Shown here piece by piece: positions 8,851-56,199 of a stretch of 64,000 nt of DNA. Location of the stretch: the NCBI RefSeq assembly GCF_001562055.1, contig NZ_LLWE01000024.1, forward strand, positions 186,001 to 250,000. The letters run 5' to 3'. The DNA comes from Polycladidibacter stylochi. Its GTDB lineage: Bacteria; Pseudomonadota; Alphaproteobacteria; Rhizobiales; Stappiaceae. The stretch's first letter is position 1. Each line of letters begins with the position of its first letter. The notes below the pieces were generated by a model, which was not told the origin of the DNA, did not search any database, and saw nothing but the letters and a program-made list of their open reading frames with translations. Made by a program: the position numbers and the translations under genes.

Positions 8851-9651
8851 ATGCATCTTGATGTTTTGCACCTTAAACAGTTCTACGATTTGCCATTAGG
8901 TCGTATGTTACGCGTACTAATCAATCGGCGGGTGCGTAAGATATGGCCTGCAATGGCAAACTATAGCCTACTTGGTCTTGGCTATACGGGGCCATTCTTA
9001 CGACCTTACTTGAAAGAAACACCTAGAATTTTTGCAGGCATGCCAGCAGCCCAAGGGGTTGTTAAGTGGCCACGTGAAGACAGTTATGCCAATATGGCAT
9101 TCCTTACAGATTGCCAAAGTCTTCCCTTTCCAGATTCCAGTATTGACCGTATCATTCTGGTTCATGCTCTAGATATGGCACTAAATCCAAGCGCTTTATT
9201 GAATGAAGTACACCGCGTGCTTGTTCCTGGAGGCCGCGTTATCGCCATAGTACCCAACCGGCGCGGGGTTTGGGCGCAGTCGGAAGTTTCTCCCTTTGGC
9301 TATGGAACACCTTATTCACGCGGACAGTTGGAAAACTTTCTAAGCAATCACTTTCTATCGGTAACAGCAAAAGAAGAAGCACTTTACGTGCCTCCTACAA
9401 AATCTCGACTTATTATGCGTAATGCCCGCCTATTTGAGCGTATAGGTGCAGTGGTGGGTTCAAGCTTTGCCGGCCTGTTAATTATGGAAGCAGAAAAACA
9501 GGTCTACCGAGGCATATCAACACCACGTAAAAGCATGGTACGTGTTCTAAAACCAGTATTTATTCCCGAGGCAAAACCTGTTGGTGCCCAGCGTCAGTCG
9601 CCAATAGTAACTTCAAATAAGCCGCAAAAACCAATTACGCAAGAAAACTAG
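8851..9651 (+). CDS. Class I SAM-dependent methyltransferase, substrate unknown
   Basis: This 266-aa protein has a Methyltransf_11-like fold: a glycine-rich SLLGLGYTG segment early, a LPFPDSSIDRIILVHALDM acidic-post-motif region near residue 90-110, and EVHRVLVPGGRVIAIVPN (about 122-140), the usual motif III area. The C-terminus is a basic, proline-rich tail. AGGTAAG precedes the ATG. It is divergent from gloB, an arrangement seen in other alphaproteobacteria, but the methylated substrate is not known. The reading is a confident methyltransferase, with no specific function assigned. Confidence 0.85.
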   Translation: MHLDVLHLKQFYDLPLGRMLRVLINRRVRKIWPAMANYSLLGLGYTGPFLRPYLKETPRIFAGMPAAQGVVKWPREDSYANMAFLTDCQSLPFPDSSIDRIILVHALDMALNPSALLNEVHRVLVPGGRVIAIVPNRRGVWAQSEVSPFGYGTPYSRGQLENFLSNHFLSVTAKEEALYVPPTKSRLIMRNARLFERIGAVVGSSFAGLLIMEAEKQVYRGISTPRKSMVRVLKPVFIPEAKPVGAQRQSPIVTSNKPQKPITQEN

Positions 9652-9680
9652 AGCTCACCTAATTTGAAACGAGGCAAACC

Positions 9681-10310
9681 CTATTTACGCTCAAGCAAAA
9701 AGATTGCCTGGTCACTAATAAGGTTTCGTAACCACCAAGGTCCACTATAAACGATAGGCTTTCCTTTTGCATCAAGTGCTTCAGCACGCAACACGCGGGC
9801 ATCTACCTCATCAGCCAGAGCCAAAAAATCTCTCAAAGTACAAAAGTGAATATTGGGCGTATTGTACCACTCATAGGGCAGATAGTCGGTTACCGGCATA
9901 CGGCCCCGCCATAGCAGCTGTAGTCTGTTGCGCCAGTGTCCAAAATTCGGAAATGAAACAACAACCTTTTTCCCTATTCGCAATAACTCGATTAAAACCT
10001 GTTTGGGGTCCATCGTCGCTTGCAAAGTTTGGCTTAGTATCGCGTAATCGAAGGCCGCATCAGGATAAGCATCCAAATCCTTATCAGCATCTCCTTGGAC
10101 AACGGAAAGCCCTCTGGCAACACACTCATTCACCCCTGCCTGCGAGATTTCAATTCCCCGGCCATCAACCTGCCTGAGGTTGACCAAAAGCTCCAATAGC
10201 TCACCCTTACCACAGCCAATATCCAGCACCTTAGCTTGCGGCACCACAAAATCACAAAGGATTTGGTAGTCTCCACGGGCATGAGCGACTTCGACATTCT
10301 TACGCATCAT
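9681..10310 (-). CDS. metW: Methionine biosynthesis protein MetW
   Basis: This 209-aa protein has a class I methyltransferase fold with motif I VLDIGCGKGELLELL (about 29-43). MetW is encoded next to MetX in many proteobacteria and is thought to support MetX activity rather than act as a free methyltransferase. AAGGATTAT precedes the double ATG. It follows metX by 24 bases on the same strand, so the two form an operon. Start alternatives differ by a single residue. Confidence 0.93.
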   Translation of the reverse strand: MMRKNVEVAHARGDYQILCDFVVPQAKVLDIGCGKGELLELLVNLRQVDGRGIEISQAGVNECVARGLSVVQGDADKDLDAYPDAAFDYAILSQTLQATMDPKQVLIELLRIGKKVVVSFPNFGHWRNRLQLLWRGRMPVTDYLPYEWYNTPNIHFCTLRDFLALADEVDARVLRAEALDAKGKPIVYSGPWWLRNLISDQAIFLLERK

Positions 10311-10334: not shown

Positions 10335-11546
10335 TTAGTCCGATTGCTTTACCGGCGCTTCAATACCACGCGCTTTCGCGGCACCTGTCAAAAATCCCCG
10401 CATTGTCTTGAACATTTCAGGTTCATTAAGCAAAAATGCGTCATGTCCACGCGAGCTATCAATTTCCACAAACGATACATTCGCCGCTGCCGCGTTGAGA
10501 GCTTGCACAACCGCCTTACTTTCCGAGGTGGGGAACAACCAGTCAGTTGTAAATGACATCACACAAAAGCGGGTTTTACTATGTAAAAACGCTCCGGCCA
10601 GCTTCCCATCATGTGGCGCAGCCAAATCAAAATAATCCATCGCTCTGGTAACATACAAATACGAGTTGGCATCAAAGCGATCGACAAAAGTCATGCCTTG
10701 ATGACGTAAATAGCTCTCAATTTGGAAGTCTGCATCAAAACCAAAACTAACCGATGAGCGATCTTGCAAATTTCGACCGAATTTATCGTGCAAAGAAGCA
10801 TCCGACATGTAAGTAATATGTGCTGCCATCCTAGCGACAGAAAGCCCTTTTGTCGGGCGTTTGTTTTCAACCGCATAATTGCCGTGACACCAGTCAGGGT
10901 CCGCCATAACAGCTTGGCGGCCGACCTCATGAAACGCTATGTTTTGCGAAGAATGTCGCGCCGCTGTAGCAATTGGAACGCAAGAGAACACCATTTCAGG
11001 GTAGGCAGCTGCCCATTGCAACACCTGCATCCCTCCCATAGAGCCACCAATTACGGCAAAGAGTGTCTCAATACCCAAAGATAGAACAAGTTTGCGTTGC
11101 GCACGAACCATATCACCAATCGTAACTACAGGCAGATCAAGGCCATACGATTTTCCAGTAGCAGGGTTATGCGTTGCTGGGCCGGTTGTGCCAAAGCAGC
11201 CCCCCAGCACATTAGAGCAAATAACGAAGTATTTGTTTGTATCTACGGGGCAGCCAGGACCAACCATCATCGACCACCAACCCGGCTTTCCCGTCACTGG
11301 ATTGGTCGAGGCCACATACTGATCGCCTGTTAATGCGTGACAAACAAACACCGCATTCGATTTATCGGCGTTGAGCTCCCCGTAAGTTTCATAGGCGATT
11401 TGCCAAGGAGCAATGCTAACACCTGCATCCAGCTTGAGCGGGTCTTCCAAACCAAAGCGCATCATTTTGCCGACAGGATGTGTTGCTTGTTCCTGCGCCG
11501 ATTGATGCTGCGCGCCTTCTGCGCTACCTTTGGTTGGTTGTGTCAT
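10335..11546 (-). CDS. metX: Homoserine O-acyltransferase MetX
   Basis: This alpha/beta hydrolase (403 aa) activates homoserine by acyl transfer, the first committed step of methionine synthesis. The nucleophile elbow is [13 protein letters not shown] (serine about residue 168); the acid and base are in DWLFPTSES and HDAFLLN near the C-terminus. Family members use acetyl-CoA or succinyl-CoA. The presence of MetW and of a MetZ-type sulfhydrylase in the window favours succinyl transfer, but the residues that decide this were not analysed. GGAG lies five bases before the ATG. No SAM-II element was found upstream. Confidence 0.93.
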
Positions 11547-11722
11547 CTCATCTCCAATGACTATTCATAAATATCTCAAAATACGAAGCAGCCCTTATTA
11601 TCGGAGGCTCATCTTCTAGATAATCTTGCTAGGCGGCCAGTATTGATCTGTCAATGCTCCCATATTCACAACAGTAGGCAAAGCCTCAAAAATTATGCCA
11701 TTTTACAAAGACATACGTTAGC

Positions 11723-11773
11723 CTCCTGTAAATACTTGCCGTGAACTACAGGAAACTTGAGCTTTTTAAGCTC
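11723..11773. repeat. Two inverted repeats in the metX-hisC divergent gap
   Basis: The 11547-11858 gap separates divergent metX and hisC. It contains CCTGTA (11724-11729) pairing with TACAGG (11747-11752), and then GAGCTT (about 11759-11764) pairing with AAGCTC (about 11768-11773). A TTGACA hexamer near 11794 could be a hisC -35, but no good -10 stands at the right distance. I see no riboswitch, RNA gene or ORF here. Confidence 0.35.
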
Positions 11774-11858
11774 ATAACAACCAAAGGTAATATTTGACAG
11801 CTGGGGTTTGTTGGTGCACACGAATATGCCACCATTCAATGTTAAGGAATGAATTAAA

Positions 11859-12962
11859 ATGGACCGAGTGCCTTCAAGACCAGAACCACGAGCAGGAATA
11901 TTAGACATTGCGCCTTATGTTCCCGGCAAATCTTCTGTTTCAGGCCAACCAACCAAGCACAAACTTTCTTCCAATGAAACACCATTAGGCGCTAGCCCTA
12001 AAGCGCTGGAAGCATATAGGTCCATCAATCATTTAGAACATTATCCAGACGGAAGTGCAGAAGAGCTGCGCCAAACCCTCGCTAAAATTCATGGTTTGAA
12101 TGCTGATCGCATTATTTGTGGCAGTGGTTCCGACGAAATTCTCAGCCTCATTGCCTATACTTATTTAGGGCAGGGAGATGAGGCCATTTATTCTCAACAT
12201 GGCTTTTCTGTATACAAAATTGCAATAATGGCGGCTGGCGCAACACCAATCGTGGCACCAGAAAAAAACCTCACCACAGATGTAGACGCCGTTTTAGAGC
12301 GCGTTACCAATAAAACTAAAGTGGTGTTTATAGCCAATCCAAACAACCCCACTGGCACCTACCTGCCATTTGATGAAGTTAAACGCTTGCATGAGGGCTT
12401 ACCAAAAAACTGCTTGCTGGTATTAGATGCAGCCTATGCAGAATATGTGCGCCGCAATGACTATGAGGCAGGAATTTCGCTGGCTTCTTCCGCAGATAAC
12501 GTTATCATGACGAGAACGTTCTCAAAAGTTTACGGCTTGGCTGCACTTCGCGTGGGCTGGGGCTTTGGGCCTGAGCATGTTATTGATGCAATGAACCGTA
12601 TCCGTGGTCCTTTTAATATGAATAGCGCCGCATTGGCTGCTGGTATTGCAGCAGCTAAAGATCAGGACTTCCTGCATAAAGCCATAGCCCATAACAGTGA
12701 GTGGCTCCCCATTGTAACAGAACAAGTCACCCAATTGGGGCTCAAAGTTACTCCGAGCGTTGGCAATTTTATTTTGATTCACTTCAGCGAAGAAAAAGGT
12801 AAAACAGCACAAGATGCAGATGCCTTTTTGCAATCAAAAGGCTGTATTTTACGTCAAGTAGGCTCTTACGGCTTGCCCAATTGCCTTCGGATGTCTATTG
12901 GCAGTGAAGCAGCTAACCTTGATGTTATTGCAGCACTGAAAGAGTTTTTACATAGCAACTGA
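11859..12962 (+). CDS. hisC: Histidinol-phosphate / aromatic aminotransferase HisC
   Basis: This fold-type I PLP aminotransferase (367 aa) has [10 protein letters not shown] (about 28-37), [11 protein letters not shown] (about 162-172), LDAAYAEYV and the PLP lysine in [17 protein letters not shown]. HisC makes histidinol phosphate from imidazole-acetol phosphate. Immediately downstream lies the arogenate/prephenate dehydrogenase gene, 12 bases away. In alphaproteobacteria this hisC copy next to tyrC often serves aromatic amino-acid transamination too, so its substrate range may be broad. It starts with a weak AAGGAATG upstream. Confidence 0.9.
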
Positions 12963-12974
12963 ATGAAAGAGTAA

Positions 12975-13910
12975 ATGTCTGACCCCTTGTTTCAACGTGT
13001 GGCGCTAATTGGCATTGGCTTGATTGGCTCCTCACTAGCACGTGTCATGCGCCGCGAAAAATTGGCGCGAGAAATCATCATCTCAACACGATCCGAGGCA
13101 ACACTAAAACGTGCCATGGAGCTGGAACTGGGCGACTATTATTATTTAAACGCAGCGAAAGCGGTTGAAGGCGCAGATTTAGTAATACTATGCACACCAG
13201 TTGGTGCCTGCGAGCAGGTTGCAAAGCAAATTGCCCCCCATTTAAGTGAGGGTGCTATTGTGACAGATGTTGGCTCTGTTAAGGCTGCTGTCATAGCTGC
13301 AGTGAAGCCACACCTACCAACAACTGTGCACTTTATTGCAGGCCACCCGGTGGCGGGAACTGAATATTCTGGACCGGATGCCGGTTTTGCCAGCCTGTTT
13401 GAAAACCGCCGTTGCATTTTAACACCGGAAGAAGGCACAAGCCCAGCGGCTTTGGAAAAGCTGATAAAATACTGGCAATCCTGCGGCTCTGAGGTGGAAA
13501 CCATGGCGCCTGAGCATCATGATCTAGTGCTCGCGGTGGTATCGCACCTACCTCATATAATTGCCTACAATATAGTCGGTACAGCGGACGATTTGGAAAC
13601 TGTAACCAAATCTGAGGTTATTAAATATTCTGCTTCAGGCTTTCGCGACTTTACCCGCTTAGCATCCTCCGATCCCACCATGTGGCGCGATGTATGCCTC
13701 AACAATAAAGATGCGATTTTAGAAATGCTGGCACGCTTTTCCGAAGACTTGTCAGCGCTACAACGTGCAATTCGCTGGGGAGATGGAGACAGCCTGTTTA
13801 ATCTATTTACCCGCACACGAGGCATTCGCAAACAGCTGATTGAAGCGGGCCAAGAATCTCCCGCTCCAAACTTCGGACGTCAAAACGAGGCAGGAGATCC
13901 AGCCCAATAG
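12975..13910 (+). CDS. tyrC: Prephenate/arogenate (cyclohexadienyl) dehydrogenase
   Basis: This 311-aa NAD-dependent enzyme of tyrosine synthesis oxidatively decarboxylates prephenate or arogenate. The Rossmann motif is ALIGIGLIGSSLARVM (about 9-24). The catalytic segment GHPVAGTEYSGPDAG (about 122-136), and SHLPHIIAYN (about 189-198) with its conserved histidine, are present. No chorismate mutase or ACT domain is fused, as expected for the alphaproteobacterial type; a separate chorismate mutase is encoded at 25076-25393. It forms an operon with hisC and is followed by a strong hairpin. Substrate preference is not decidable here. Confidence 0.92.
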   Translation: MSDPLFQRVALIGIGLIGSSLARVMRREKLAREIIISTRSEATLKRAMELELGDYYYLNAAKAVEGADLVILCTPVGACEQVAKQIAPHLSEGAIVTDVGSVKAAVIAAVKPHLPTTVHFIAGHPVAGTEYSGPDAGFASLFENRRCILTPEEGTSPAALEKLIKYWQSCGSEVETMAPEHHDLVLAVVSHLPHIIAYNIVGTADDLETVTKSEVIKYSASGFRDFTRLASSDPTMWRDVCLNNKDAILEMLARFSEDLSALQRAIRWGDGDSLFNLFTRTRGIRKQLIEAGQESPAPNFGRQNEAGDPAQ

Positions 13911-13917
13911 GTTTATG

Positions 13918-13939
13918 CCCTGATAAGGCAATATCAGGG
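13918..13939. terminator. Bidirectional hairpin between tyrC and the CobW gene
   Basis: CCCTGATA (13918-13925) pairs perfectly with TATCAGGG (13932-13939) around a six-base loop. It lies in the 36-base gap between two convergent stop codons, where a shared terminator is expected. There is no clear T-run on either strand. Confidence 0.55.
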
Positions 13940-13946
13940 AAACACC

Positions 13947-15161
13947 CTAGTTTTTAAAACCACTAAAACCGCCTATTGATAATGGATTATCCATCAAAGC
14001 GGTTTTATCGGGGGTATCACTAGCTATACCGCCAGTAAAAGCATCAAACATCCGTTTGACAAACCCTTCGGCAAGCCCGTTCACAATGAAAACCAGCTTG
14101 CTTTGGCGCTCATCATCAGGCCATTTTGCTAAACGGGCAGGGGGGTGAAACACATGCTGTACCCCATGTATTACTACCGGTTGATCTGGATGCTCGCCAA
14201 CAAGGATAATACCTTTAACACGTAAGAGTTTTGGGCCATGTGCGCTGCGCAGCAAGTCCATAAACATTTCTAGCCCACCAGCTGAAATTGGTCGCTCACT
14301 TACCAATGTAAAGGCACGAATATTCTTACTATGTCTGTTCACATCATGTGCATGTCCATCATCATCCCCATGATGATGGTGGTGGTGGCTATGTTCTTCC
14401 CCCTCATGGGCATGATGGTGATGAGCATCTCTATAAGCTTCTTCATTGAGCCAGCGCTTCACCTCAGGCACTTTACTATCGGGATTATAAAGGCCGCAAT
14501 TAATCAAATCAGCAACTTCCTGCTCACCAATACTGCGGGTAATAGTTGTCGCCCCCGGGTTAAGGCGTTTTAATTCTGCTTTTAGAGCTATGAAAGTCTT
14601 TTCCTGCTCTTCACCCTTTACCAAATCGCTTTTTGTGATGACCAAACGGTCCGCCACAGCAACTTGGCGCACGGCTTCCTCATGCTCAGCCAAACTATTC
14701 AAGCCATTGACGGCATCAACGAGCGTAACCACCCCGTCGAGACGATAGCGCATGACCAGATAAGGATGTAGCATAACGCTATGAAGCACAGGTGCCGGGT
14801 CTGCAAGGCCAGTTGTTTCAATAACCACACGCTTCAACTTTTCAAGGCGGCCATTATCCAGCTTACGCAATAGGTTTTCTAGCGTGGCAACCAAATCACC
14901 GCGAATAGTGCAGCATAAACAACCTGAGGAAAGCTCAATAATACCGTCATCCACCTTATCAACCAGCAGATGATCTAGGCCAACCTCGCCAAATTCATTT
15001 ATAATAACAGCTGTATCCGCCATATCTGGCGATTTTAGAATTTCATTCAAGAGGCTGGTTTTTCCTGAACCTAAAAAACCAGTTATGATATTCAAAGGAA
15101 TTGGTTCAGGAGGCCTACGTCTATTCTGTGCCTGACCGTAGCCAGTCTCTATTTCACTCAT
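13947..15161 (-). CDS. CobW/COG0523 family GTPase, metal chaperone with His-rich loop
   Basis: This 404-aa G3E GTPase has the P-loop GFLGSGKTSLLNEIL (about 28-42), the metal-binding CxCC motif in SSGCLCCTIRGDL (about 78-90), ETTGLADPAPV, and the TKSD base-recognition motif. A histidine-rich loop at about residues 247-274 separates it from the C-terminal CobW_C domain. Such proteins deliver metals, often zinc, to client enzymes. No cobalamin gene is nearby, so a role in zinc rather than B12 is more likely, though the metal is inferred. It follows the D,D-carboxypeptidase gene by 94 bases. No zinc-repressor box was found upstream. Confidence 0.9.
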   Translation of the reverse strand: MSEIETGYGQAQNRRRPPEPIPLNIITGFLGSGKTSLLNEILKSPDMADTAVIINEFGEVGLDHLLVDKVDDGIIELSSGCLCCTIRGDLVATLENLLRKLDNGRLEKLKRVVIETTGLADPAPVLHSVMLHPYLVMRYRLDGVVTLVDAVNGLNSLAEHEEAVRQVAVADRLVITKSDLVKGEEQEKTFIALKAELKRLNPGATTITRSIGEQEVADLINCGLYNPDSKVPEVKRWLNEEAYRDAHHHHAHEGEEHSHHHHHHGDDDGHAHDVNRHSKNIRAFTLVSERPISAGGLEMFMDLLRSAHGPKLLRVKGIILVGEHPDQPVVIHGVQHVFHPPARLAKWPDDERQSKLVFIVNGLAEGFVKRMFDAFTGGIASDTPDKTALMDNPLSIGGFSGFKN

Positions 15162-46800: not shown

Positions 46801-47502
46801 ATGCGTGAGATTTCTTTCGACACCGAAACAACAGGCTTGAATCCTTTAGATGGCGATCGCCTTGTTGAAATTGGTGGTGTTGAACTAATGAATCTGGTTC
46901 CAACTGGCCGTGTTTATCACGTCTATATCAACCCCCAGCGCGATATGCCTGAGGAAGCTTACCGTGTTCATGGCCTATCTGCTGAATTTTTGGCCGATAA
47001 ACCCTTGTTTTCCGAAGTTGCCGATGATTTCTTGGAATTTGTTGGTGACGCCCGCTTGGTTATTCACAACGCCCCATTTGATATGGGGTTCATCAATATG
47101 GAGCTGGGCCGCATCAACCGGCCGCCGATATCTAATACCCAAGTTCTTGATACCTTGAAAATGGCGCGACGCAAATTCCCAACGGGCTCTGCGTCTCTTG
47201 ATGCGCTGTGTAGCCGTTTTGGTATCGATAATTCTAAGCGTACCAAACACGGCGCACTACTTGATGCCGAGCTTTTGGCCGAAGTCTATCTTGAGCTGAA
47301 TGGTGGGAAGCAAAAGAACCTTATTCTATCACCAGATGAAGTTGATAGCGGCAAAGCTGATGAGCAAGGCACAATTGAAAGAGCACCAGCTAAGCAGCGT
47401 TCTACCAAACTCGTTTCACGCCTAACAGCCGAGGATATCGAACAGCATCAGCAATTCATCAGCGCTATGAAAGCTGACCCTTTGTGGAAAAAATATATGT
47501 AA
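46801..47502 (+). CDS. dnaQ: DNA polymerase III epsilon subunit (3'-5' exonuclease)
   Basis: This 233-aa proofreading exonuclease has the DEDDh motifs: FDTETTGLNP (Asp/Glu, about 6-15), HNAPFDMGFINMEL (about 83-96) and RTKHGALLDAELLAEVY (His/Asp, about 153-169). The C-terminal tail that binds the polymerase lacks recognisable motifs but ends MKADPLWKKYM, usual for alphaproteobacteria. It is the last gene of the ppsR-maf-aroE-coaE-dnaQ run. A 142-base gap follows, with an ATTGATA/TATCAAT repeat at 47508-47534. Confidence 0.95.
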   Translation: MREISFDTETTGLNPLDGDRLVEIGGVELMNLVPTGRVYHVYINPQRDMPEEAYRVHGLSAEFLADKPLFSEVADDFLEFVGDARLVIHNAPFDMGFINMELGRINRPPISNTQVLDTLKMARRKFPTGSASLDALCSRFGIDNSKRTKHGALLDAELLAEVYLELNGGKQKNLILSPDEVDSGKADEQGTIERAPAKQRSTKLVSRLTAEDIEQHQQFISAMKADPLWKKYM

Positions 47503-47644
47503 TCAAAATTGATATGAGTAGAGGAGGTATCAATACAATTAATATACTCTAGTGAAAATACTATAATTACAGCAGCGATTTATAACAAATAAATAAATTG
47601 AGTTGAGCTACAATGATTGGACAAAGTCCACTTGTTGAGCCGAT

Positions 47645-48439
47645 ATGAAACCTCTCACTTTACTCATTTGGATACAGCTTGTTATCGCAATGTTGGGTTT
47701 GATAGGATTTGAAATGATCCAAGCCCATCTACGCGGCTTATGGGCGTTGATCATAATAGAATTCATATTGGGTGCCTTCTTGCAACCACCGTTTGCAATT
47801 GCGCTTGGAGTTATTACCTTTCTTGCTGCTATTATAGGTTTGTTCTTGGGCATGTTCAGCGAAGGACAAACAGCAATAATTATATTAGCATTTATTTTTA
47901 TTCCTCTTGCTCCGATGACCTCTTCAGCAATTAAAGCTGGTGTTTATCTGCTTGCTGAAACTGCACAATTCAATGAAGTCAAGCGTAACTACGAGCTACT
48001 TATAAATCCCAAAACAAAAATAATGACAACCGTAATGCTGTCTGATCATTTTTCGGCCTTGACGAAAACAGCAGAAAACAAGTCACCAACAATAAATTGG
48101 TATTTAGTAGAAAATTATAGCGATATAAGTGGCTTACTAGGAAAAACAGTAGCTGAAAAACGACTTAGAATATTCTTAGATAAACTTAAGCAATTGGTTG
48201 ACCAGCATGGCTATCTAGTTTTTGTAGACACAAAAACTCACTATTTATTCGCCCTTGTTAAATTGCAATCTGACGCAATAACGCCAAATGAACTAATAGA
48301 TTTGGTGTTAGCTCAAGAAAAATCTTCAGGTTTTAGTATCAAAGAGCAAGAGCAATGTCGGCACCAATTGAATTGCAAAATTAAAGCCAACAAGATCACA
48401 GACCAAAGCAGACTTGATAGTAAAGAGGCTTTACAATGA
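47645..48439 (+). CDS. Four-helix membrane protein with degenerate GGDEF-like domain
   Basis: Residues 1-95 form four hydrophobic helices (about 4-26, 31-46, 48-70, 75-92). Residues about 148-227 follow the diguanylate-cyclase fold pattern: a strand (NWYLVENYSDI), two helices (GKTVAEKRLRIFLDKLKQLVDQHG), then the active-site hairpin, where VDTKTHYLFALV replaces the usual GGDEF region. So it cannot be a cyclase, but could bind cyclic di-GMP or a partner. The plan matches Bacillus YdaK. It is first in a five-gene operon and overlaps the next gene by four bases. The domain match is by eye and should be tested by structure comparison. Confidence 0.65.
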   Translation: MKPLTLLIWIQLVIAMLGLIGFEMIQAHLRGLWALIIIEFILGAFLQPPFAIALGVITFLAAIIGLFLGMFSEGQTAIIILAFIFIPLAPMTSSAIKAGVYLLAETAQFNEVKRNYELLINPKTKIMTTVMLSDHFSALTKTAENKSPTINWYLVENYSDISGLLGKTVAEKRLRIFLDKLKQLVDQHGYLVFVDTKTHYLFALVKLQSDAITPNELIDLVLAQEKSSGFSIKEQEQCRHQLNCKIKANKITDQSRLDSKEALQ

Positions 48440-49356
48440 GCCAATTAATCAAAGCTATTTCAATCTGCGCTGGTTTATACGGTCCAATAGAGGAGCAGCC
48501 TTCCAATATATGGCTTCAACAATATGCAAGAGACACAAGGCGTCCAGTTAAATCAGTTATAGTTGATAAGAGAAAAATTATAGCTCCGCTGGATCAAGTG
48601 CCCTATTGGTTTCAGCAGCCAAATCGTAGTTGGCTTGTCATTCCAGAGCATATTGAACATAAGAAGAAGCTAAATATAGCACAAGTTGCACTAAAAAATG
48701 GCATTAGGCCGGGATTTCTACTGCCTGAAAGCCCACTTATTTTATATCGTTCTCCTCAAAAACTAAGAGAGACGTACGAACTGGTAAAAGTAGGTGCACT
48801 CGCAGTACAGCCTCAAAAAAAAATAGAATTAGCGAAGCGTTATAAATCTGCATTATTATTGGCTGGCCTAGGGTTACCTGTTAGCGGCTTTATGTTCATA
48901 GCAAGTGATGCAGCATACAGCAGGCCTGTTGATGGATTAATTCTTTTCACAAAAAAAACACCTGATTATCCTGAATTATATCCAATGATAATCAAAGAAA
49001 AGCAAAGAAGTGTCGTCCCTGTCTTTTTTAATACTTCAATAGCTGTTGGTGCGAAGGCAAGTACACAAGTAAACCCGAATGAAACTAACTTTCAGCCCGA
49101 AACCTATACTTACAAATGGCGATTTTTAGGGGCAGACTTCGAAAGTGGTCCTGATTCAATTACAACAGATTTCTGGGGTAAGCTGGTTTTGGCTGCTGTG
49201 GCATTTTCAGCCTATTTCCTAAGTTACATAGTATTGCCTGTTGGTTCGGCCTCTGAATTACTCTCTAGCTTATTTGGTTGGTTAGCAGTGGTAGTAAGTG
49301 CAGTTACTACCGTTTTGCTATTTTTTGCCCTAGTTGCAGGAAGGCTGGGTAAATGA
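48436..49356 (+). CDS. Unrecognised membrane protein of the exopolysaccharide operon
   Basis: I do not recognise this 306-aa protein. It has a hydrophilic N-terminal part (1-135), a first hydrophobic stretch at about 138-156, a predicted exported segment at about 157-248 with YTYKWRFLGADFESGPDS, and two C-terminal helices (about 250-270 and 278-302). No nucleotide, sugar-transfer or PilZ motif is visible. Overlaps of four bases on both sides, including with the glycosyltransferase gene, point to a joint function, perhaps as a coupling or c-di-GMP-sensing subunit; that is inference. Confidence 0.75.
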   Translation: MSQLIKAISICAGLYGPIEEQPSNIWLQQYARDTRRPVKSVIVDKRKIIAPLDQVPYWFQQPNRSWLVIPEHIEHKKKLNIAQVALKNGIRPGFLLPESPLILYRSPQKLRETYELVKVGALAVQPQKKIELAKRYKSALLLAGLGLPVSGFMFIASDAAYSRPVDGLILFTKKTPDYPELYPMIIKEKQRSVVPVFFNTSIAVGAKASTQVNPNETNFQPETYTYKWRFLGADFESGPDSITTDFWGKLVLAAVAFSAYFLSYIVLPVGSASELLSSLFGWLAVVVSAVTTVLLFFALVAGRLGK

Positions 49357-50609
49357 GTAGCTACGACCTTTTCTTTATCCTGGGATTTTTAGGTATTTGG
49401 AGTGCTCAGCTATACTGGAATCTCCTATCTATTGGCAGTGTTGCTGTATATTTTCGTAACCGTAATAATAAAATTCTAGAGGGGATAAATCAATTCACTG
49501 AATGGCCTACAGTGACAATACTTATACCAGCATACAACGAAGCAGCTGTAATAGCGAACACACTATCAGCAATGGAGCAGCTGGATTACGATCAAAAGAA
49601 GCTACAAATAATTGTGGTGAATGATGGTTCGACAGATGCAACTAAAAATATAGCTGAGGGCTTTGCCAATCAATCCCGAACAATAGAAGTCTACAATATC
49701 CCTAAAGATATGGGAGGTAAGGGCAAATCGCGCACACTAAATAATGGTTTGGTAAAGGCAACAGGCGAAATTATTGTTGTCTATGATGCCGACAACACAC
49801 CGGAATCCAACTGCCTAAAAAGGTTGGTATACACTCTGATCAAATCGCCTGAATTGGTTGCTGTGAACGGTAAAGTGAGAACCCGTAATTGGAACCAGAG
49901 TTGGCTTACAAGGTTTATTGCGATCGAGTTTATTTTTACGCAATGGGTGTTTCAGGCGGGGCGTTGGTACTGGCTCAACCTATCAACGCTTATGGGTACC
50001 AACTATGCTATCTGGCGTAATGTTCTCGATACACTTGGTGGCTTTGACGAGAACTCGTTGGTTGATGATACCGAAATGAGTCTTAGAATTTTTGCAGGTG
50101 AAAAAAAAATCCGCTGGGTGCCCTATGCTGTTACATGGGAACAAGAACCAGAGAACTTTAATGTTTGGCTCAAACAAAGAACGCGTTGGTCTCAGGGTAA
50201 TTTATATGTATTGCAAAAATACCTGCCCGTTGGGCTCGCTCGCCCCAAAAGTGTGGGAATGGAGATCTTTCACAGTGTGTTCAGCTATATAATTTTTTTA
50301 CCAGCATTGGTGTTTAGTCATGTCATTTTTTATGGTGGCCTATTGGGATTACTAAACACTTCTGTCAAAGGTCCCTACTCAATACTATGGGCTATGTCAT
50401 TTATACTTTTTGTTCTTCAGTCTTTTTTTACTTTGAGAGTGGAAAGAGCACCAAGTATTTTATATTTTTATGCAGTTATTTCATACGTTACATATATTCA
50501 GTTATTTATTATTGTCGCTCTTCGTGCTGTTTACTTAACCATCAAGGATAATTTAACAGGTAGAGGCATGAACTGGGAAAAAACGTCGAGATCAGATGAA
50601 AATGATTAA
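49353..50609 (+). CDS. Processive family-2 glycosyltransferase, polysaccharide synthase
   Basis: This 418-aa membrane glycosyltransferase has the cellulose/hyaluronan-synthase catalytic set: VVNDGSTD (D91), the DxD metal motif D145-A-D147, DDTE (238-241) as the TED-like acceptor site and QRTRW (275-279). A helix lies at the N-terminus (about 5-33) and three or four after residue 305. The chain stops 26 residues beyond the last helix, so it has no PilZ domain and cannot sense c-di-GMP like BcsA. It should polymerise a polysaccharide while moving it across the inner membrane; the sugar is unknown. It overlaps the next gene by 14 bases. Confidence 0.92.
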   Translation: MSSYDLFFILGFLGIWSAQLYWNLLSIGSVAVYFRNRNNKILEGINQFTEWPTVTILIPAYNEAAVIANTLSAMEQLDYDQKKLQIIVVNDGSTDATKNIAEGFANQSRTIEVYNIPKDMGGKGKSRTLNNGLVKATGEIIVVYDADNTPESNCLKRLVYTLIKSPELVAVNGKVRTRNWNQSWLTRFIAIEFIFTQWVFQAGRWYWLNLSTLMGTNYAIWRNVLDTLGGFDENSLVDDTEMSLRIFAGEKKIRWVPYAVTWEQEPENFNVWLKQRTRWSQGNLYVLQKYLPVGLARPKSVGMEIFHSVFSYIIFLPALVFSHVIFYGGLLGLLNTSVKGPYSILWAMSFILFVLQSFFTLRVERAPSILYFYAVISYVTYIQLFIIVALRAVYLTIKDNLTGRGMNWEKTSRSDEND

Positions 50610-52533
50610 AGGTATAAAACCAATGTGCCCTCTTAAGCTGCATTGTAGATTATTACTAACTTTCATCCTCGTACTGATTATCTATTCAATGCAGCTCAAT
50701 GTCGGGAGTGCTCAGGCTATAGCTGATGCTAATTATCATGGAAAAACACAGGAGCGAATTTCATCAATTACACTTTCTGGGCAAACTGATAGGCAAATAA
50801 GATTCTTCAACATACGTAAGAATAGCCGCTGGCAAAATGTTTATTTACGGTTTCGTGCCGTTGGCGCAAAACAAACATCACTAACTATTTTTCTTGATGG
50901 TGAGTTGATTGAAGGCATAGAGGTATTACCTTACAAAGATTATGCAATATCACTTGGAAACATTGAAGATGGTTTTCATTCGATTAGTTTTGTTGCTTCA
51001 AATGGCAACTTAGCACCAAATCTACGTCATCTGAATAATTGCTTGTTGCAAGATATACCGTTCATGCAGTTGCAACAGGTTGAACTGTTGGCAGACTATG
51101 TAAGCGTATTACCCATAGCAATATCTTCATTACCTGAACCGTTGTTCTCATTGGAAGAGGATACAGTCCTTAATGCAATGATGATTATGGATCACAAAGA
51201 TATTCCGACTAAGGAAGTAGCTATTGAGATTGCCGCATTTCTTGGAAGTTTTGGGCGTACTATCCTATGGTCTCCTCCAGGACGAAAAGTTAGTAAAAGG
51301 GTAGATTTTGAGGTAGAATTAGAACACCGTCCATTATTAAAGACACCGGCCATAATTTCTGTGTATCCGCGTTGGAATCCACCGGGTTACTCATTATATG
51401 GCGAAACAAGCCTATCAAACTATCAAAAGCCTGCTCGTTTGCGTATCACATTTCGAGATCTAGAAGCTCTCAAATGGGCTAAGTATGCAATCATATCAGA
51501 AAAGTATCGAAACCAGCTCAATAAGCCTCAAATATTTATTGAACGTGAAGTATCTGAAGAAAAGGCCAGATATTACCGCAAGTTTGAGAGCCTATCAGAT
51601 TATGGAATGTCGAACATAAGGCTTTCAAGAAAACAAGCGACCTATTTGGTAACAGCCCCCCCAGGGCATATGTTTGAGCCCTATGGCATCACCAATATTG
51701 TGTTCCAAAGTCGGGCAGGTTTAAGACGGGGTTCGGCTTTGGATTTCTTGATTAATAACCAAATGAGTGGTTCGATAGATTTAACGCAAATTACCCAAGG
51801 CGAGGGAATTGCAAACTTTAATGTAGAACTCAATACGGCCTTAAGAAATTTATCGTTGAGTTTTGATCCTATCCTAATATCAAATGATGATTGCCTACCG
51901 GGTAATGCTGCCTTTCTGGAAATCAAAGCAGATACCAGCAAATTGGGAATTAAACCCAGACCAATGACAGGTATTGGCGCTTTACCTACCAATCTCGTTG
52001 TGCGCCCGATATCTTATCTGAATGATAATTCAGTTGCGTTCGCAACGCTCCTTACCTTGAGTGGCATTACAGTAAAGCTTCTAGCACCAAATAGTAGCTT
52101 GGATATGAAGCTGGCAGCAGATAAGAAAGATGCCACATTGTCCATCACTATTGACCCAGATGAGTTCAATAAACTTAGTATCCAAAATCAATCAAGGATT
52201 CATGCACCCCTTAATATTCAAGGTGTTTTTGTTGCTCTTACAGGTACTGGTTATCAGATAATCGCATCTGACGAAAACTCATTACAGCAGCTAATTGAGC
52301 AGCTTCCATCGTATTTGCCTGTTATTTCAGATGGAATCGAGCTGCTATATTTTTCCTCAAGTGTCGGCTTTATTGAACTTGATACAGATAAAGTTGAGGC
52401 AGAAATTTTTTCTTTAACTTTGGACTTACCCCATTACTGGCTGTTGCTAGGTTCAGTGTTATTCATTGTTATTTTCCTGGCAATTGTCGTTATCATTCGT
52501 TTTCTAGTCTCACTGAGAAAAGTAAGACGCTAG
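50596..52533 (+). CDS. BcsB-like periplasmic membrane-anchored protein
   Basis: This 645-aa protein has a signal sequence (about 15-41), a long periplasmic part rich in beta strand, and a C-terminal helix (about 616-636) followed by SLRKVRR. The plan and the DIPTKEVAIEIAAFLGSFG segment resemble the BcsB/YdaN family, which holds the nascent glucan at the synthase exit. Sequence identity is probably low. The first ATG (50596) overlaps the glycosyltransferase gene; ATGs at 50602 and 50623 are alternatives, the last with AAAGG upstream. It ends one base before the next gene. Confidence 0.7.
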   Translation: MKMIKGIKPMCPLKLHCRLLLTFILVLIIYSMQLNVGSAQAIADANYHGKTQERISSITLSGQTDRQIRFFNIRKNSRWQNVYLRFRAVGAKQTSLTIFLDGELIEGIEVLPYKDYAISLGNIEDGFHSISFVASNGNLAPNLRHLNNCLLQDIPFMQLQQVELLADYVSVLPIAISSLPEPLFSLEEDTVLNAMMIMDHKDIPTKEVAIEIAAFLGSFGRTILWSPPGRKVSKRVDFEVELEHRPLLKTPAIISVYPRWNPPGYSLYGETSLSNYQKPARLRITFRDLEALKWAKYAIISEKYRNQLNKPQIFIEREVSEEKARYYRKFESLSDYGMSNIRLSRKQATYLVTAPPGHMFEPYGITNIVFQSRAGLRRGSALDFLINNQMSGSIDLTQITQGEGIANFNVELNTALRNLSLSFDPILISNDDCLPGNAAFLEIKADTSKLGIKPRPMTGIGALPTNLVVRPISYLNDNSVAFATLLTLSGITVKLLAPNSSLDMKLAADKKDATLSITIDPDEFNKLSIQNQSRIHAPLNIQGVFVALTGTGYQIIASDENSLQQLIEQLPSYLPVISDGIELLYFSSSVGFIELDTDKVEAEIFSLTLDLPHYWLLLGSVLFIVIFLAIVVIIRFLVSLRKVRR

Positions 52534-52534
52534 T

Positions 52535-53542
52535 ATGATTGGCAGACAAAAATGCGCTGTAAAGTATAAATTCCGGACTTTATGGTGGCTTGGTTTCGCG
52601 TTTCCGTGTGCTTTTAGTTTTGTAGGTTTAGTTCTCATATGGTTGATCTACTTAACTCCAAAATATAATTTGTTTGCAGGTGTCATTTGGCAACCTGATT
52701 TCCAAACGATGGAAGGATTAACTCATGGGCAATTACCATATGGACCATGGGCAGCGGCTGGTTCCAAAACAATAATGGTTCAATTTGGAAAGGTTCGATC
52801 TGTTGTCGCTAGGGGAAATCAAGGTGCTGAAATTGTTTGGCCTGGAAAGTTAGGGGCAAATACATCATGGCAAACGCTGGCAGCACAAGCAGGACAATGC
52901 AATATTATTGTGGGCCTATCAGGTATTTACCAAGAAGCAGAGGCACGAGAGAACTTCGATCACCTTGTTCAAAGCTCCTTGGATTATATTGAGAAAAATG
53001 CGTATTTGGGACAACCATTCGCGTGGTATTTTCCAGTTGAAATTGATCCTAGTTGGAAGGATATGCCAAACTTAAAAAAAAGCTTAAGCGCTTTGCCTCG
53101 CCCACTATGGATATCCGCTTATGCTGGTATAAAAAAAGCACAACATCCTAGGCGAATTGCACGATGGTTATTAAACAATCTCCCAAAAGATGTCGGGGTG
53201 TTGTGGCAAGATGGTGTGGGTGCGCATTCACGTACTTTAAAAAATTCAGTTAAACTTATTTCTGCTCTTCATGAAAAGTTAGGTACTAAACGCCTCATAA
53301 TCATAACGGAAAGTTTTAGAACAAATCATGATAAAACAACAAGGCCAGCCACTGGAGCAGAGTTATTTGACCAAATAGCAACCTATCAAAAACACTTTCC
53401 CCAATTGCAGCGTTATGTTTTTGAAGGCCCTAAGTTTTTTGGTTGGCCACAACTATTATCTTTAAAATTCCATATAGCGCTTTTTAATAGGCATAGTATT
53501 TATCAGAGTTTAGAAGCCAAAGACAAAGAGGGTTGTATATAA
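52535..53542 (+). CDS. DUF4434-like TIM-barrel protein, possible glycoside hydrolase
   Basis: This 335-aa protein has one N-terminal helix (about 16-40) and an exported domain. GVIWQPDFQTME (49-60), a WYFPVEIDPSW segment (about 164-174) and LWQDGVGAHS (about 222-231) match what I remember of DUF4434, a TIM-barrel family related to glycoside hydrolases. The acidic residues in these motifs could be catalytic. It may trim or release the exported polysaccharide, as the GH8 enzymes do in cellulose operons. It starts one base after the BcsB-like gene and is the last gene in the operon. Confidence 0.6.
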   Translation: MIGRQKCAVKYKFRTLWWLGFAFPCAFSFVGLVLIWLIYLTPKYNLFAGVIWQPDFQTMEGLTHGQLPYGPWAAAGSKTIMVQFGKVRSVVARGNQGAEIVWPGKLGANTSWQTLAAQAGQCNIIVGLSGIYQEAEARENFDHLVQSSLDYIEKNAYLGQPFAWYFPVEIDPSWKDMPNLKKSLSALPRPLWISAYAGIKKAQHPRRIARWLLNNLPKDVGVLWQDGVGAHSRTLKNSVKLISALHEKLGTKRLIIITESFRTNHDKTTRPATGAELFDQIATYQKHFPQLQRYVFEGPKFFGWPQLLSLKFHIALFNRHSIYQSLEAKDKEGCI

Positions 53543-53560
53543 AATATTGAAATAGTTAGA

Positions 53561-54835
53561 TTAAAACAATTTGAAAATGGAAAGCTCAACTCTAAATTCT
53601 CCATAATCGCGGGAACCATCAAAACGCGAGCCAACTAAGTATTCAGTACGTAAGCTGCTATTATAACTACCGGGAAAATGCCAGACAGCACCGGTCCCTA
53701 TTTCGTAATAGTTGTTGAAATCATCATCAGCAAGATCGAAGCCAATTTCGCCAATAAGGTAGCTCCTCAATTCGCCAAAAGGATGTGACAACAAAACAAG
53801 CCCAGAGCGATTACGAATTTGCCCGATAACATTGTAATCTTCGCGTGAGTATGTGGCGACATTACCGTAAAAGTCAGTGAACATTTCAAGAGGAAATGAG
53901 GTTTCCTTTTGAAGGCAGTCGGAAAATAAAGGCGGCAAGTTAGGTGGCTTTGATTGCCAAAATGTTGTTACCCCTGCCTCTAAATGAAATTGAGCTCTGT
54001 TTCGGTTGCGGTCAATAAGATCAAAAGCTGTTCCCAATTCTCCATAAATCACAATTGGATACTCTTCAAATGGCCTGATATCACCACCTACTCCAACAAC
54101 TGCTTGATTGATGTCATAGATAACAGCGTTTTTACCGCCTGTTGATTCGGTGTCTGCGTCCACACGCGCTAAACCATATAGGCGGATATTATGTTCCAAT
54201 TTTTGTCCCAAACGAATACGCATGGGAAAAAGTAGGCCATTGATGTCAGAGCTATAACTTGGCGCGGTATATAACTCGCCAAACCAAGGATCTTGTGTAA
54301 TTGGACGATTGTTTGCTTGAATATTAGCAATCGAGCTACAAGCTATATCAACGACTTGTTCATCTTTTGCAGTTAGCAAGCTTTCAAATTGCATTTCTGC
54401 TATTTCAGGAAGTGCAATATCATTGAGTAAATACGCTGTTTGCAGGGATATTTGGATATCATCTGGTTGGAGTGCCAAATACTTTCTAGCCGCTGTAAGA
54501 GCTTTGCGTTTTTCTCCAGTTCGCAAAAACAAGTAGACCTGAGCCCTATAAACCGTTGGGTCATTTGGTGTTAAGTGCTCAAGCTCTTTTAGCTGGCTAC
54601 TACCAGTTGATGGGTCTGCTGAATTGGTTTTGTAAAAGCTGGCCCATAACTCATATATTTCATTACCGGGTCTATAATAGCTTTGGTCACGAGCAATTAC
54701 TGGTTTTATTGCACTAATCTCTTGTGCAGCTGTTTGGCCAACAGCTGTTATTAAGAAAACAAATATATACCCGAAATGCAACGCAGCACTTAATACATTA
54801 GCAAGGTAATAGAATAATTTTTCTAGTACCCACAT
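53561..54835 (-). CDS. TPR plus outer-membrane beta-barrel protein, NfrA-C-like exporter
   Basis: This 424-aa protein has a signal peptide (about 1-37), two or three TPR-like helices at about 75-150, and a beta-rich C-terminal part starting near WFGELYTAPSYSS (about 185) with alternating aromatic strands. It ends in phenylalanine (IFKLF), the classic BAM recognition end. The arrangement matches the C-terminal half of NfrA or PgaA/BcsC exporters, with fewer TPRs. It is convergent with the exopolysaccharide operon, 18 bases from its end, and probably exports the product through the outer membrane. A hairpin at 54846-54863 sits next to its ribosome site. Confidence 0.75.
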   Translation of the reverse strand: MWVLEKLFYYLANVLSAALHFGYIFVFLITAVGQTAAQEISAIKPVIARDQSYYRPGNEIYELWASFYKTNSADPSTGSSQLKELEHLTPNDPTVYRAQVYLFLRTGEKRKALTAARKYLALQPDDIQISLQTAYLLNDIALPEIAEMQFESLLTAKDEQVVDIACSSIANIQANNRPITQDPWFGELYTAPSYSSDINGLLFPMRIRLGQKLEHNIRLYGLARVDADTESTGGKNAVIYDINQAVVGVGGDIRPFEEYPIVIYGELGTAFDLIDRNRNRAQFHLEAGVTTFWQSKPPNLPPLFSDCLQKETSFPLEMFTDFYGNVATYSREDYNVIGQIRNRSGLVLLSHPFGELRSYLIGEIGFDLADDDFNNYYEIGTGAVWHFPGSYNSSLRTEYLVGSRFDGSRDYGEFRVELSIFKLF

Positions 54836-54845
54836 AAATACTCTC

Positions 54846-54863
54846 GATTTAGATAACTAAATC
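54846..54863 (-). promoter_or_regulatory. Perfect inverted repeat in the leader of the outer-membrane exporter gene
   Basis: On the minus strand GATTTAG and CTAAATC form a seven-base stem around a four-base loop. It ends ten bases before the start codon, directly upstream of the GAGAG ribosome site, so as RNA or as an operator it could control this gene. Confidence 0.4.
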
Positions 54864-54939
54864 AGGGATAGAGCATTCGTGGAATCGTGGCTACTTTCCT
54901 AATTATTCGGGTTATTTATGTCATGAGTAAAGGTGATTA

Positions 54940-54964
54940 AAAGAGCCCTTTTCAGGGGCTCTTT
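54940..54964 (-). terminator. Terminator of the hydroxyacid dehydrogenase gene
   Basis: AAAGAGCCC (54940-54948) pairs with GGGCTCTTT (54956-54964) around a seven-base loop, two bases past the stop codon of the downstream-reading dehydrogenase. On the minus strand the stem ends in TTT. It works in principle in both directions. Confidence 0.75.
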
Positions 54965-54966
54965 AT

Positions 54967-55953
54967 TCATAGCATTGAAGGTAAAACTCTATCTGGCGGT
55001 CTATGGCCATCCATAAATGCCTTAATATTGATGATTACTTTCTCACCCATATCAATGCGACCTTCAATTGTTGCAGAGCCCATATGTGGTAACAACACAA
55101 TACGCTCGTTATTCAGTAGCTTGTTATTAATCGCAGGTTCAAACTCAAAAACATCCAAGCCAGCACCAGCCAGCTCACCCGCTTCTATTTGTCGAATAAG
55201 CGCGTTTTCATCAACAATTTCACCTCGTGCTGTATTCACGATATAAGCATCCGGTTTCATAAGTTTTAAGCGCCGTGCAGAGAGCAGGTGGTAGGTTGCT
55301 GGTGTGTAAGGGCAATGAATAGACACCACATCCATACGCGCGAGCATTTGGTCCAGGCTTTCCCAAAAAGTTGCCTCAAGGGTTTCTTCAACCTCTAAAG
55401 GCTCCCGAATGCGGTTATGATAGTGAATGGACATACCAAACGCTTTTGCCCGCCGCGCAACAGCTTGCCCAATACGCCCCATACCAATGATACCAAGACG
55501 CTTACCCCAAATGCGACGGCCTAGCATCCATTGGGGAGACCAGCCAGCCCATTCTTTATTTTCTATTTTTTTGATACCTTCGGACAATCGACGAGGCACA
55601 GCCAGCATTAGTGCCATGGTCATGTCTGCGGTATCCTCTGTCATTACGCCAGAGGTATTGGTAACAGTAATCCCGCGGTTATTTGCGGTAGCTACATCAA
55701 TGCTGTCAACACCGTTACCATAGTTGGCAATCAGTTTTAGACTTGGATTGGCTTGTGCCAAAATTGAAGCATCTATGCGGTCTGTAACTGTTGGAACAAG
55801 AACATCGGCTGTCTTGACAGCTTCCACAAGTTCAGCTTGTGTAAAAGGTCTATCAGCTTCATTAAGCTTAGTATCAAATAACTCGCGCATTCTTGTTTCG
55901 ACAACATCTGGCAATTTGCGCGTAACGACCACAACGGGCTTCTTTTTTGGCAT
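54967..55953 (-). CDS. D-2-hydroxyacid dehydrogenase (glyoxylate/hydroxypyruvate reductase-like)
   Basis: This 328-aa NAD(P)-dependent enzyme has the Rossmann motif LGIIGMGRIGQAVARRAKAFG (about 152-172), the substrate arginine in NTARGEIVDENAL (about 235-247), and the catalytic Glu and His in the EFEPAIN and LPHMGSAT segments. These fit the glyoxylate/hydroxypyruvate reductase group. The start at 55953 is supported by AGGA three bases upstream and homologue length; the frame extends 54 bases more. It is transcribed alone. Confidence 0.92.
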   Translation of the reverse strand: MPKKKPVVVVTRKLPDVVETRMRELFDTKLNEADRPFTQAELVEAVKTADVLVPTVTDRIDASILAQANPSLKLIANYGNGVDSIDVATANNRGITVTNTSGVMTEDTADMTMALMLAVPRRLSEGIKKIENKEWAGWSPQWMLGRRIWGKRLGIIGMGRIGQAVARRAKAFGMSIHYHNRIREPLEVEETLEATFWESLDQMLARMDVVSIHCPYTPATYHLLSARRLKLMKPDAYIVNTARGEIVDENALIRQIEAGELAGAGLDVFEFEPAINNKLLNNERIVLLPHMGSATIEGRIDMGEKVIINIKAFMDGHRPPDRVLPSML

Positions 55954-56199
55954 AGTTCCTGCCCTTTTGAAAAACCAATGAGGATATGTTAATCCTCTTC
56001 CACCCACTATCGAGTTGCTGAAGTGCTTTGCCGACAGCCCTCATGGTTTCATTAACAGATGGTGCATGTAAAACAAGTCTTGTAAATTAAGGCTATTTAC
56101 ACTAGCAGCGATATTAAGCACATCCTAGCCGATAAGGTAAAATAGTCACTAACCACATAGGCTAACTCCTAGGCACAAACGCACGAACTTGGTACAGCT

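Follow-up and report, generated by a model that had tools for sequence, protein, structure and literature searches.

The window analysed here, 64,000 nucleotides from a contig of Polycladidibacter stylochi (NZ_LLWE01000024.1, positions 186,001 to 250,000), contains a block of six genes at 47645 to 54835 that corresponds to the phage glycan receptor (PGR) locus of Acinetobacter. It is likely, in our judgement, that the block represents a PGR-type exopolysaccharide locus acquired by horizontal transfer, in a six-gene form that lacks a linked epimerase gene, and that it would make a polymer from UDP-N-acetylmannosamine (UDP-ManNAc) in the manner proposed below. The locus is real, intact-looking and rare. 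A previous sequence-only reading had taken it for a synthase-type exopolysaccharide locus, and that core holds: its glycosyltransferase is 37% identical to the Listeria Pss enzyme, and a DUF4434-type barrel and a tetratricopeptide repeat (TPR) protein are encoded with it. The accompanying claim that the combination was undescribed and unassigned fails, the counterpart having been published as the Acinetobacter PGR locus (PMC12507263).

A PGR-Type Locus Outside Acinetobacter

A tblastn search with gene 4 against the records of a plasmid collection leads to a locus on an Acinetobacter plasmid where the five genes recur in unchanged order, with homologues of gene 6 and of wecB adjoining. The glycosyltransferase finds 21 records of that collection at E ≤ 1e-40, seven of them from Acinetobacter, and three of these seven exceed 3.6 Mb. 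A gene 6 search retrieves the same seven, and gene 4 retrieves only three of them (E ≤ 1e-5). Every one of the seven found through the glycosyltransferase has homologues of PgrA to PgrE on a common strand, opposed by convergent wecB and PgrG. All seven fall into two lineages of nearly identical copies (four A. baumannii, three of A. variabilis type); since order and orientation are the same in 7/7, the arrangement is not one of chance.

The homology extends to every gene. Gene 3 (49353–50609, plus strand, 418 aa), the GT2 synthase, is 53% identical over 417 aa to PgrC of the A. baumannii locus L010 (E 4e-167) and 50% identical to the other PgrC. Against the proteins of the same A. baumannii locus, gene 6 (53561–54835, minus strand, 424 aa) is 36% identical to PgrG (E 1e-70), gene 5 (52535–53542, plus strand, 335 aa) is 32% identical to PgrE (E 3e-35; best PgrE match E 2e-38) and gene 4 (50596–52533, plus strand, 645 aa) is 19% identical to PgrD (E 2e-18). 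Gene 1 (47645–48439, plus strand, 264 aa) matches the PgrA proteins of A. baumannii (25%, E 2e-7) and A. variabilis (E 3e-7), and gene 2 (48436–49356, plus strand, 306 aa) the PgrB proteins of A. baumannii (22%, E 9e-4) and A. variabilis (E 6e-5).

The window order A-B-C-D-E with a convergent G matches both L010 and L007, the latter having in addition an IS5 transposase gene between gene E and wecB. The differences are that the window has no pgrF, the UDP-GlcNAc 2-epimerase gene standing between E and G in Acinetobacter, that genes 1, 2 and 4 are about 20–25% identical to their Acinetobacter counterparts, and that the host belongs to another bacterial class.

The ORF (open reading frame) call bears out the six frames as first read, with their coordinates and strands and with overlaps of 4, 4 and 14 bases and then a one-base gap among genes 1 to 5. 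Between the six genes there is no further ORF of ≥100 aa except one antisense frame of 103 aa. Pfam and NCBIfam leave genes 1, 2 and 4 unassigned, the best NCBIfam match of gene 2 having an E of 0.9. PADLOC gives no match to the six proteins, and there is no sign among them of a known defence system.

The PGR locus comprises pgrA-G, and its authors propose a ManNAc-containing polymer (PMC12507263, main text). The same text reports that pgrD and pgrF mutants of A. baumannii resist phage StAb3, that deletion of pgrD abolishes adsorption (McCalla et al. 2025), and that at least partial PGR loci occur in 958 of 994 complete A. baumannii genomes. A diguanylate-cyclase-like fold has been claimed for PgrA in print. 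A word search of that main text finds neither "Listeria" nor "alphaproteobacteria". The phrase "phage glycan receptor" occurs, among the literature matches listed, in this paper and in a 2026 review.

PGR genes also turn up in records labelled as viral. One such contig (L040, IMGVR_UViG_3300031134_000454) carries an Acinetobacter-like PGR locus, with PgrG, wecB, PgrE and PgrD near the contig end and, a few kb off, genes read as phage-like. Two records of 174–175 kb named "Acinetobacter phage MD-2021a" (CAKLQF020000007.1 and CAKLQH020000006.1) contain a PgrG homologue and a gene for PgrE that shares 98.7% identity with the A. baumannii one; these are probably bacterial DNA deposited as phage.

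Insertion between dnaQ and a Dehydrogenase Gene

The inserted stretch (47503–54966) lies between dnaQ (46801–47502) and a dehydrogenase gene (54967–56007). In 14/14 same-genus loci read, the homologue of that dehydrogenase gene comes immediately after dnaQ; the fifteenth same-genus relative, G008, was left out as its dnaQ is near a contig end. The neighbours of dnaQ differ in three genomes from other families of the order. The G+C content is 0.369–0.407 in the six genes versus 0.436–0.479 in six flanking genes, and it is because of this lower G+C and the empty site in the relatives that the module looks inserted. Around the inserted stretch there are no convincing flanking repeats. The best six plasmid-collection matches of the dehydrogenase, at 70–72% identity, are from Sinorhizobium, Methylobacterium and Shinella, which agrees with an alphaproteobacterial host. 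The locus was probably acquired by transfer as one block.

The glycosyltransferase is found in none of 384 other genomes of a class sample and none of 397 of a phylum sample (both at E ≤ 1e-70), and in none of 396 other genomes of an order sample (E ≤ 1e-60); the three samples overlap, at most four first-look candidates were scored per genome, and such cut-offs would miss distant homologues. A search of 40 relatives, of which 15 belong to the genus, finds gene 4 in none (E ≤ 1e-3). This is weaker evidence than the glycosyltransferase and the empty site, because the gene 4 query recovers so few of the Acinetobacter records. Thus the expectation that the six genes would co-occur elsewhere stands for another genus, Acinetobacter, and not across the alphaproteobacteria at these strict cut-offs.

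An island that is rare and inserted could also be a decayed or silent one without a working product. We regard this as very improbable, since all six frames are open with lengths about those of their homologues, and the glycosyltransferase motifs and the acidic residues of gene 5 are intact.

The Synthase and the Comparison with Listeria Pss

Gene 3 is matched in Pfam by glycosyltransferase families only, with Glyco_tranf_2_3 at E 6e-30, and the catalytic motifs that had been noticed by eye are present: DAD at 145, DDTE at 238 and QRTRW at 275. In a tree of 15 glycosyltransferases, with some long branches and an unsure deep order, it groups with two PgrC proteins with support 100/98. A wider group of ten (88/97, not starred) joins the PgrC set with enzymes of Listeria, Enterococcus, Paenibacillus, Priestia, Latilactobacillus and Aminicenantes and with E. 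coli PgaC. Three NfrB proteins fall into a separate clade (100/100). The Latilactobacillus sakei plasmid pKCA54, typed as mobilizable, has its related glycosyltransferase followed by a GH8 hydrolase and wecB (L053, 3989–7559).

Gene 3 is 37% identical to Listeria PssC over 418 aa and likewise 37% to the Enterococcus enzyme. The Listeria pssA-E genes may resemble the window locus also in a BcsB-type partner and in PssE, a partner with an inactive GGDEF domain. According to excerpts of two papers, PssE is an I-site receptor for cyclic di-GMP (c-di-GMP) (PMC4125290), and the Listeria polymer is beta-1,4-ManNAc with alpha-galactose (PMC11439720). On these likenesses the window could hold a new member of the Listeria Pss/Bacillus Yda group, with an added Gram-negative exporter and with gene 1 acting like PssE as a c-di-GMP switch. 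Weak hhalign alignments point the same way, of gene 1 to PssE (probability 11%, 145 columns) and of gene 4 to PssD (probability 19%, 306 columns).

We think such a Pss/Yda member quite unlikely. Aside from the glycosyltransferase, none of the six genes has a BLAST match at E < 1 to the Listeria or Enterococcus pss proteins, gene 4 against PssD included, and genes 1 to 5 are each closer to the PGR counterpart than to the Pss counterpart by BLAST and hhalign. Moreover, PssA and PssB have no counterpart in the window, and the Listeria stretch read has no DUF4434 or outer-membrane gene. PssE keeps its I-site (RTSD at 199), whereas a motif scan of gene 1 finds no RxxD and no GGDEF-type motif, so a c-di-GMP-binding GGDEF remnant is not supported there. 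An RxxD is present in the Enterococcus counterpart only at 223 and in A. variabilis PgrA at 112, near the membrane part; A. baumannii PgrA has none. Since gene 1 and A. baumannii PgrA both lack the motif, c-di-GMP control of the window locus is unproven. A single-sequence model of gene 1 reached a pLDDT of 46, and nothing was drawn from it.

Gene 1, the PgrA homologue, has N-terminal membrane helices and a C-terminal soluble part, and gene 2, the PgrB homologue, has hydrophobic segments that are mostly C-terminal by hydropathy. Gene 4, the PgrD homologue, has N- and C-terminal hydrophobic segments by the same measure and is predicted to be periplasmic. It is called BcsB-like on its topology, on the name of the A. 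baumannii homologue and on the PssD alignment above; Listeria PssD matches Pfam BcsB, whereas gene 4 does not, and among PDB sequences gene 4 finds nothing below E 0.08.

Gene 6, the PgrG homologue, combines a short TPR part with a presumed outer-membrane barrel. It has weak TPR matches in Pfam, its matches among PDB sequences are mostly TPR proteins, a conserved block lies around YSREDYNVIG, and its C-terminal residue is phenylalanine. It had been read as a TPR/NfrA-like exporter, of which the TPR half stands. Similarity to the NfrA profile is confined to the TPR stretch (probability 53%, 114 columns), and homology to the NfrA barrel was rejected, as NfrA_C matches neither gene 6 (E ≤ 1) nor PgrG (E ≤ 0.5).

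Gene 5 and the Nfr-Type Loci

Gene 5 belongs to the PgrE/YbcH (DUF4434) family and is a predicted periplasmic TIM barrel and candidate glycoside hydrolase. Its DUF4434 match is below threshold (E 2e-4; 21 versus 30 bits), and hhalign pairs it with E. coli YbcH at a probability of 97% (E 9e-12). A model built on a four-row alignment (pLDDT 72, pTM 0.72) has eight strand-helix units, with the strands at 86–101 counted as an extra hairpin. Three acidic residues are conserved across the bacterial, phage and YbcH sequences: the invariant E169 at the end of strand 163–170, the fourth; D226 just past strand 220–225, the sixth; and E259 at the end of strand 254–259, the seventh. Glutamates placed on strands 4 and 7 are a feature of the clan GH-A retaining enzymes. 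Foldseek finds 40 PDB chains at E ≤ 0.001, read as TIM barrels, among them chitinases, mannanases and the C-terminal domain of PgaB (ranks 6 and 7); as the query TM values are low (0.33–0.52), it is the fold class alone that they support. A viral fold library yields 12 matches with no clear tail counterpart, and PDB sequences yield nothing below E 0.2.

With a phage tail protein as query (see below), the gene-5-type domain is found in 12 plasmid-collection records, seven of which are the Acinetobacter loci. Four of the other five (L048, L049, L050 and L057, loci on Pseudomonas and Burkholderiales plasmids) carry an NfrB-type synthase, NfrA and a BcsB-type gene, with wecB in three of the four stretches read; the fifth, L056, has none of these genes. 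Gene 5 is 35–36% identical to the L048 and L049 proteins (E 1e-42 to 1e-43), whereas the synthases there are of the other clade and the BcsB of the Nfr-type loci has no usable similarity to gene 4 (hhalign 2%). In L048, a Paraburkholderia plasmid, AlgF- and MBOAT-type O-acetylation genes follow NfrA (12612–14692), which suggests an acetylated version of the polymer there.

The E. coli nfrBA-ybcH system, known as NGR/Nfr, is similar in having a synthase, a TPR outer-membrane protein and a DUF4434 protein, in its proposed ManNAc content and in serving as a phage receptor (excerpts of PMC8669469 and PMC8669472). It differs in that NfrB is of another GT2 clade with a fused MshEN domain, which gene 3 lacks, and in that NfrA has 990 aa and an NfrA_C domain; as those excerpts describe it, only three genes make up the E. 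coli operon, and pgrA, B and D have no counterpart among them.

A phylum sample drawn evenly yields gene 5 in 3 of 348 other genomes, a class sample in none of 336. Two of the three loci were read, and each stretch contains wecB and an NfrA homologue; in these G+C-rich loci the ORF calls are unreliable, and the wecB and NfrA matches alone were used. One of the two has a strong gene 5 match with an internal stop codon in frame, the other a weak one (E 5e-11), and the third genome is of the same genus as the latter. Because one protein is common to two synthase types and usually stands beside UDP-ManNAc epimerase genes, a shared polymer can be argued.

Gene 5 Domains in Phage Tail Proteins

A gene 5 profile finds three viral contigs, one being the Acinetobacter-like PGR contig described above. 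The other two (L042 and L043) have tape-measure and central-fibre J genes (PHROGs 24 and 31). Shortly downstream of J, each encodes a protein whose first ~270 residues are gene-5-like, of 733 aa in L042 (8804–11005) and 1733 aa in L043 (9761–14962). These N-terminal domains match PgrE at E 3e-29 and 1e-36. The rest of the 733-aa protein, residues 284–730, matches residues 618–1073 of N4 gp65 (E 1e-17). The 1733-aa protein has two such regions: 275–728 matches gp65 611–1072 (E 1e-24), and 1072–1713 matches gp65 616–1264 (34.7% over 662 aa, E 7e-103). Both also match a tail fibre of Justusliebigvirus PaulScherrer (Bas60), at E 2e-26 and 1e-29, and the 733-aa protein has a match to a PHROG annotated as "tail sheath and receptor binding protein". 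For the J protein of L043, the closest counterparts are those of Xanthomonas phages. Bas60-62 and N4 are listed as NGR-targeting phages in an excerpt of PMC11990801.

N4 gp65 and gp66 have no gene-5-like domain, and in the cultured-phage collection gene 5 matches only the two MD-2021a records. The phage-tail version comes from two metagenomic contigs, with no third added by three further scans. In L042, the second ORF past the fused tail protein (11415–13067) matches GDSL lipase/acylhydrolase families, one just above and one below its cut-off, and weakly Calx-beta; its product is perhaps a second glycan esterase.

These fusions bring forward a more general idea, which we offer tentatively and consider quite possible: gene 5 may be a glycosidase specific to the polymer and a marker of ManNAc-type exopolysaccharide loci irrespective of their synthase, and phages may have taken up the domain as a tail depolymerase, joined to the gp65-type module of NGR-using phages. 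The literature search found no paper joining DUF4434 with phage, nor YbcH with a glycoside hydrolase.

The Epimerase and the Substrate

The locus had been called complete; all six genes are present, and the epimerase gene linked to the Acinetobacter loci is absent from the cluster. The single WecB homologue of the genome (E ≤ 1e-3; G000:C1:495726-496835), 44% identical to PgrF, is ~246 kb beyond the window and, from a reading of the translations, stands alone beside lpdA and sucAB genes. It could supply UDP-ManNAc, but nothing indicates that it came in together with the module. Its candidacy as a co-acquired partner was rejected, since in the closest relative, G013, an epimerase gene also adjoins lpdA and gene 4 was not found. 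This lone epimerase gene (L016, 7724–8836) is 57% identical to the G013 counterpart versus 98% for lpdA, so it changes fast or was replaced.

Several observations weigh against a PGR-type locus with a ManNAc polymer. There is no pgrF in the cluster; in G013 the epimerase has the same place beside lpdA and gene 4 was not found; and among the 40 relatives an epimerase homologue is present in 18 (E ≤ 1e-30) and gene 4 in none. In the stretches read from Listeria, Enterococcus and Priestia, wecB is not among the genes listed. The matches of genes 1 and 2 to PgrA and PgrB are weak (E 2e-7 to 9e-4) and lean on position. One gene-5 homologue, on L056 (Paraburkholderia sp. PREW-6R, 9153–10280), has no nfr or wecB gene within the 20 kb read, and would be a lone hydrolase or a relic. 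Finally, gene 3 resembles the synthase of poly-N-acetylglucosamine (PNAG), and therefore another N-acetylhexosamine polymer is possible.

The last point leads to the alternative that this is a locus of the PGR kind whose polymer is not based on ManNAc, with gene 3 using UDP-GlcNAc or UDP-Glc and the epimerase serving another pathway. The unlinked epimerase fits this, as does PgaC_IcaA as the best NCBIfam match of gene 3 (E 3e-39), together with the place of E. coli PgaC in the same wider tree group. The E. coli pgaABCD locus is alike in its GT2 synthase, its TPR porin and the TIM-barrel domain of PgaB. However, the PgaC_IcaA score is 135 bits against a cut-off of 422 and the CelA score 91 against 699, so that the equivalog cut-offs for PNAG and cellulose are both missed by far, and Pfam finds no deacetylase among the six genes. 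PgaC is 27% identical to gene 3 over 244 aa (E 6e-24), less alike than Listeria PssC. Gene 3 is closest to PgrC, whose locus carries wecB in 7/7 records; wecB is linked to the glycosyltransferase on the Latilactobacillus plasmid also. We therefore hold a different substrate to be unlikely. The gene 5 homologues in Nfr-type loci and in phage tail proteins likewise favour a ManNAc-type polymer and suggest that gene 5 cuts or binds it.

Proposed Mechanism and Implications

In the mechanism we propose for the PGR-type locus, UDP-ManNAc would be made by the WecB homologue, and gene 3 would polymerise it and pass the chain through the inner membrane, with the products of genes 1 and 2 as inner-membrane partners or regulators. 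Gene 4 would receive the chain in the periplasm, gene 5, as a membrane-anchored TIM barrel of the PgrE/YbcH family, would bind or trim it, and the TPR/barrel protein of gene 6 would export the polymer. The product may then be open to use as a phage receptor, as in Acinetobacter.

The PGR locus, described only from Acinetobacter in PMC12507263, is hereby extended to another bacterial class, where it seems to form a self-contained block. Two ties now connect PGR, Nfr/NGR and Listeria Pss: a related synthase and a common accessory protein. That protein, gene 5, and its use by phages are the part most worth following. If our suggestion for it is true, gene 5 would turn an unassigned sugar into one predictable across unrelated loci, and the tail-protein fusions are a lead to an enzyme that may cut these glycans, which bears on N4-like and other NGR-using phages.

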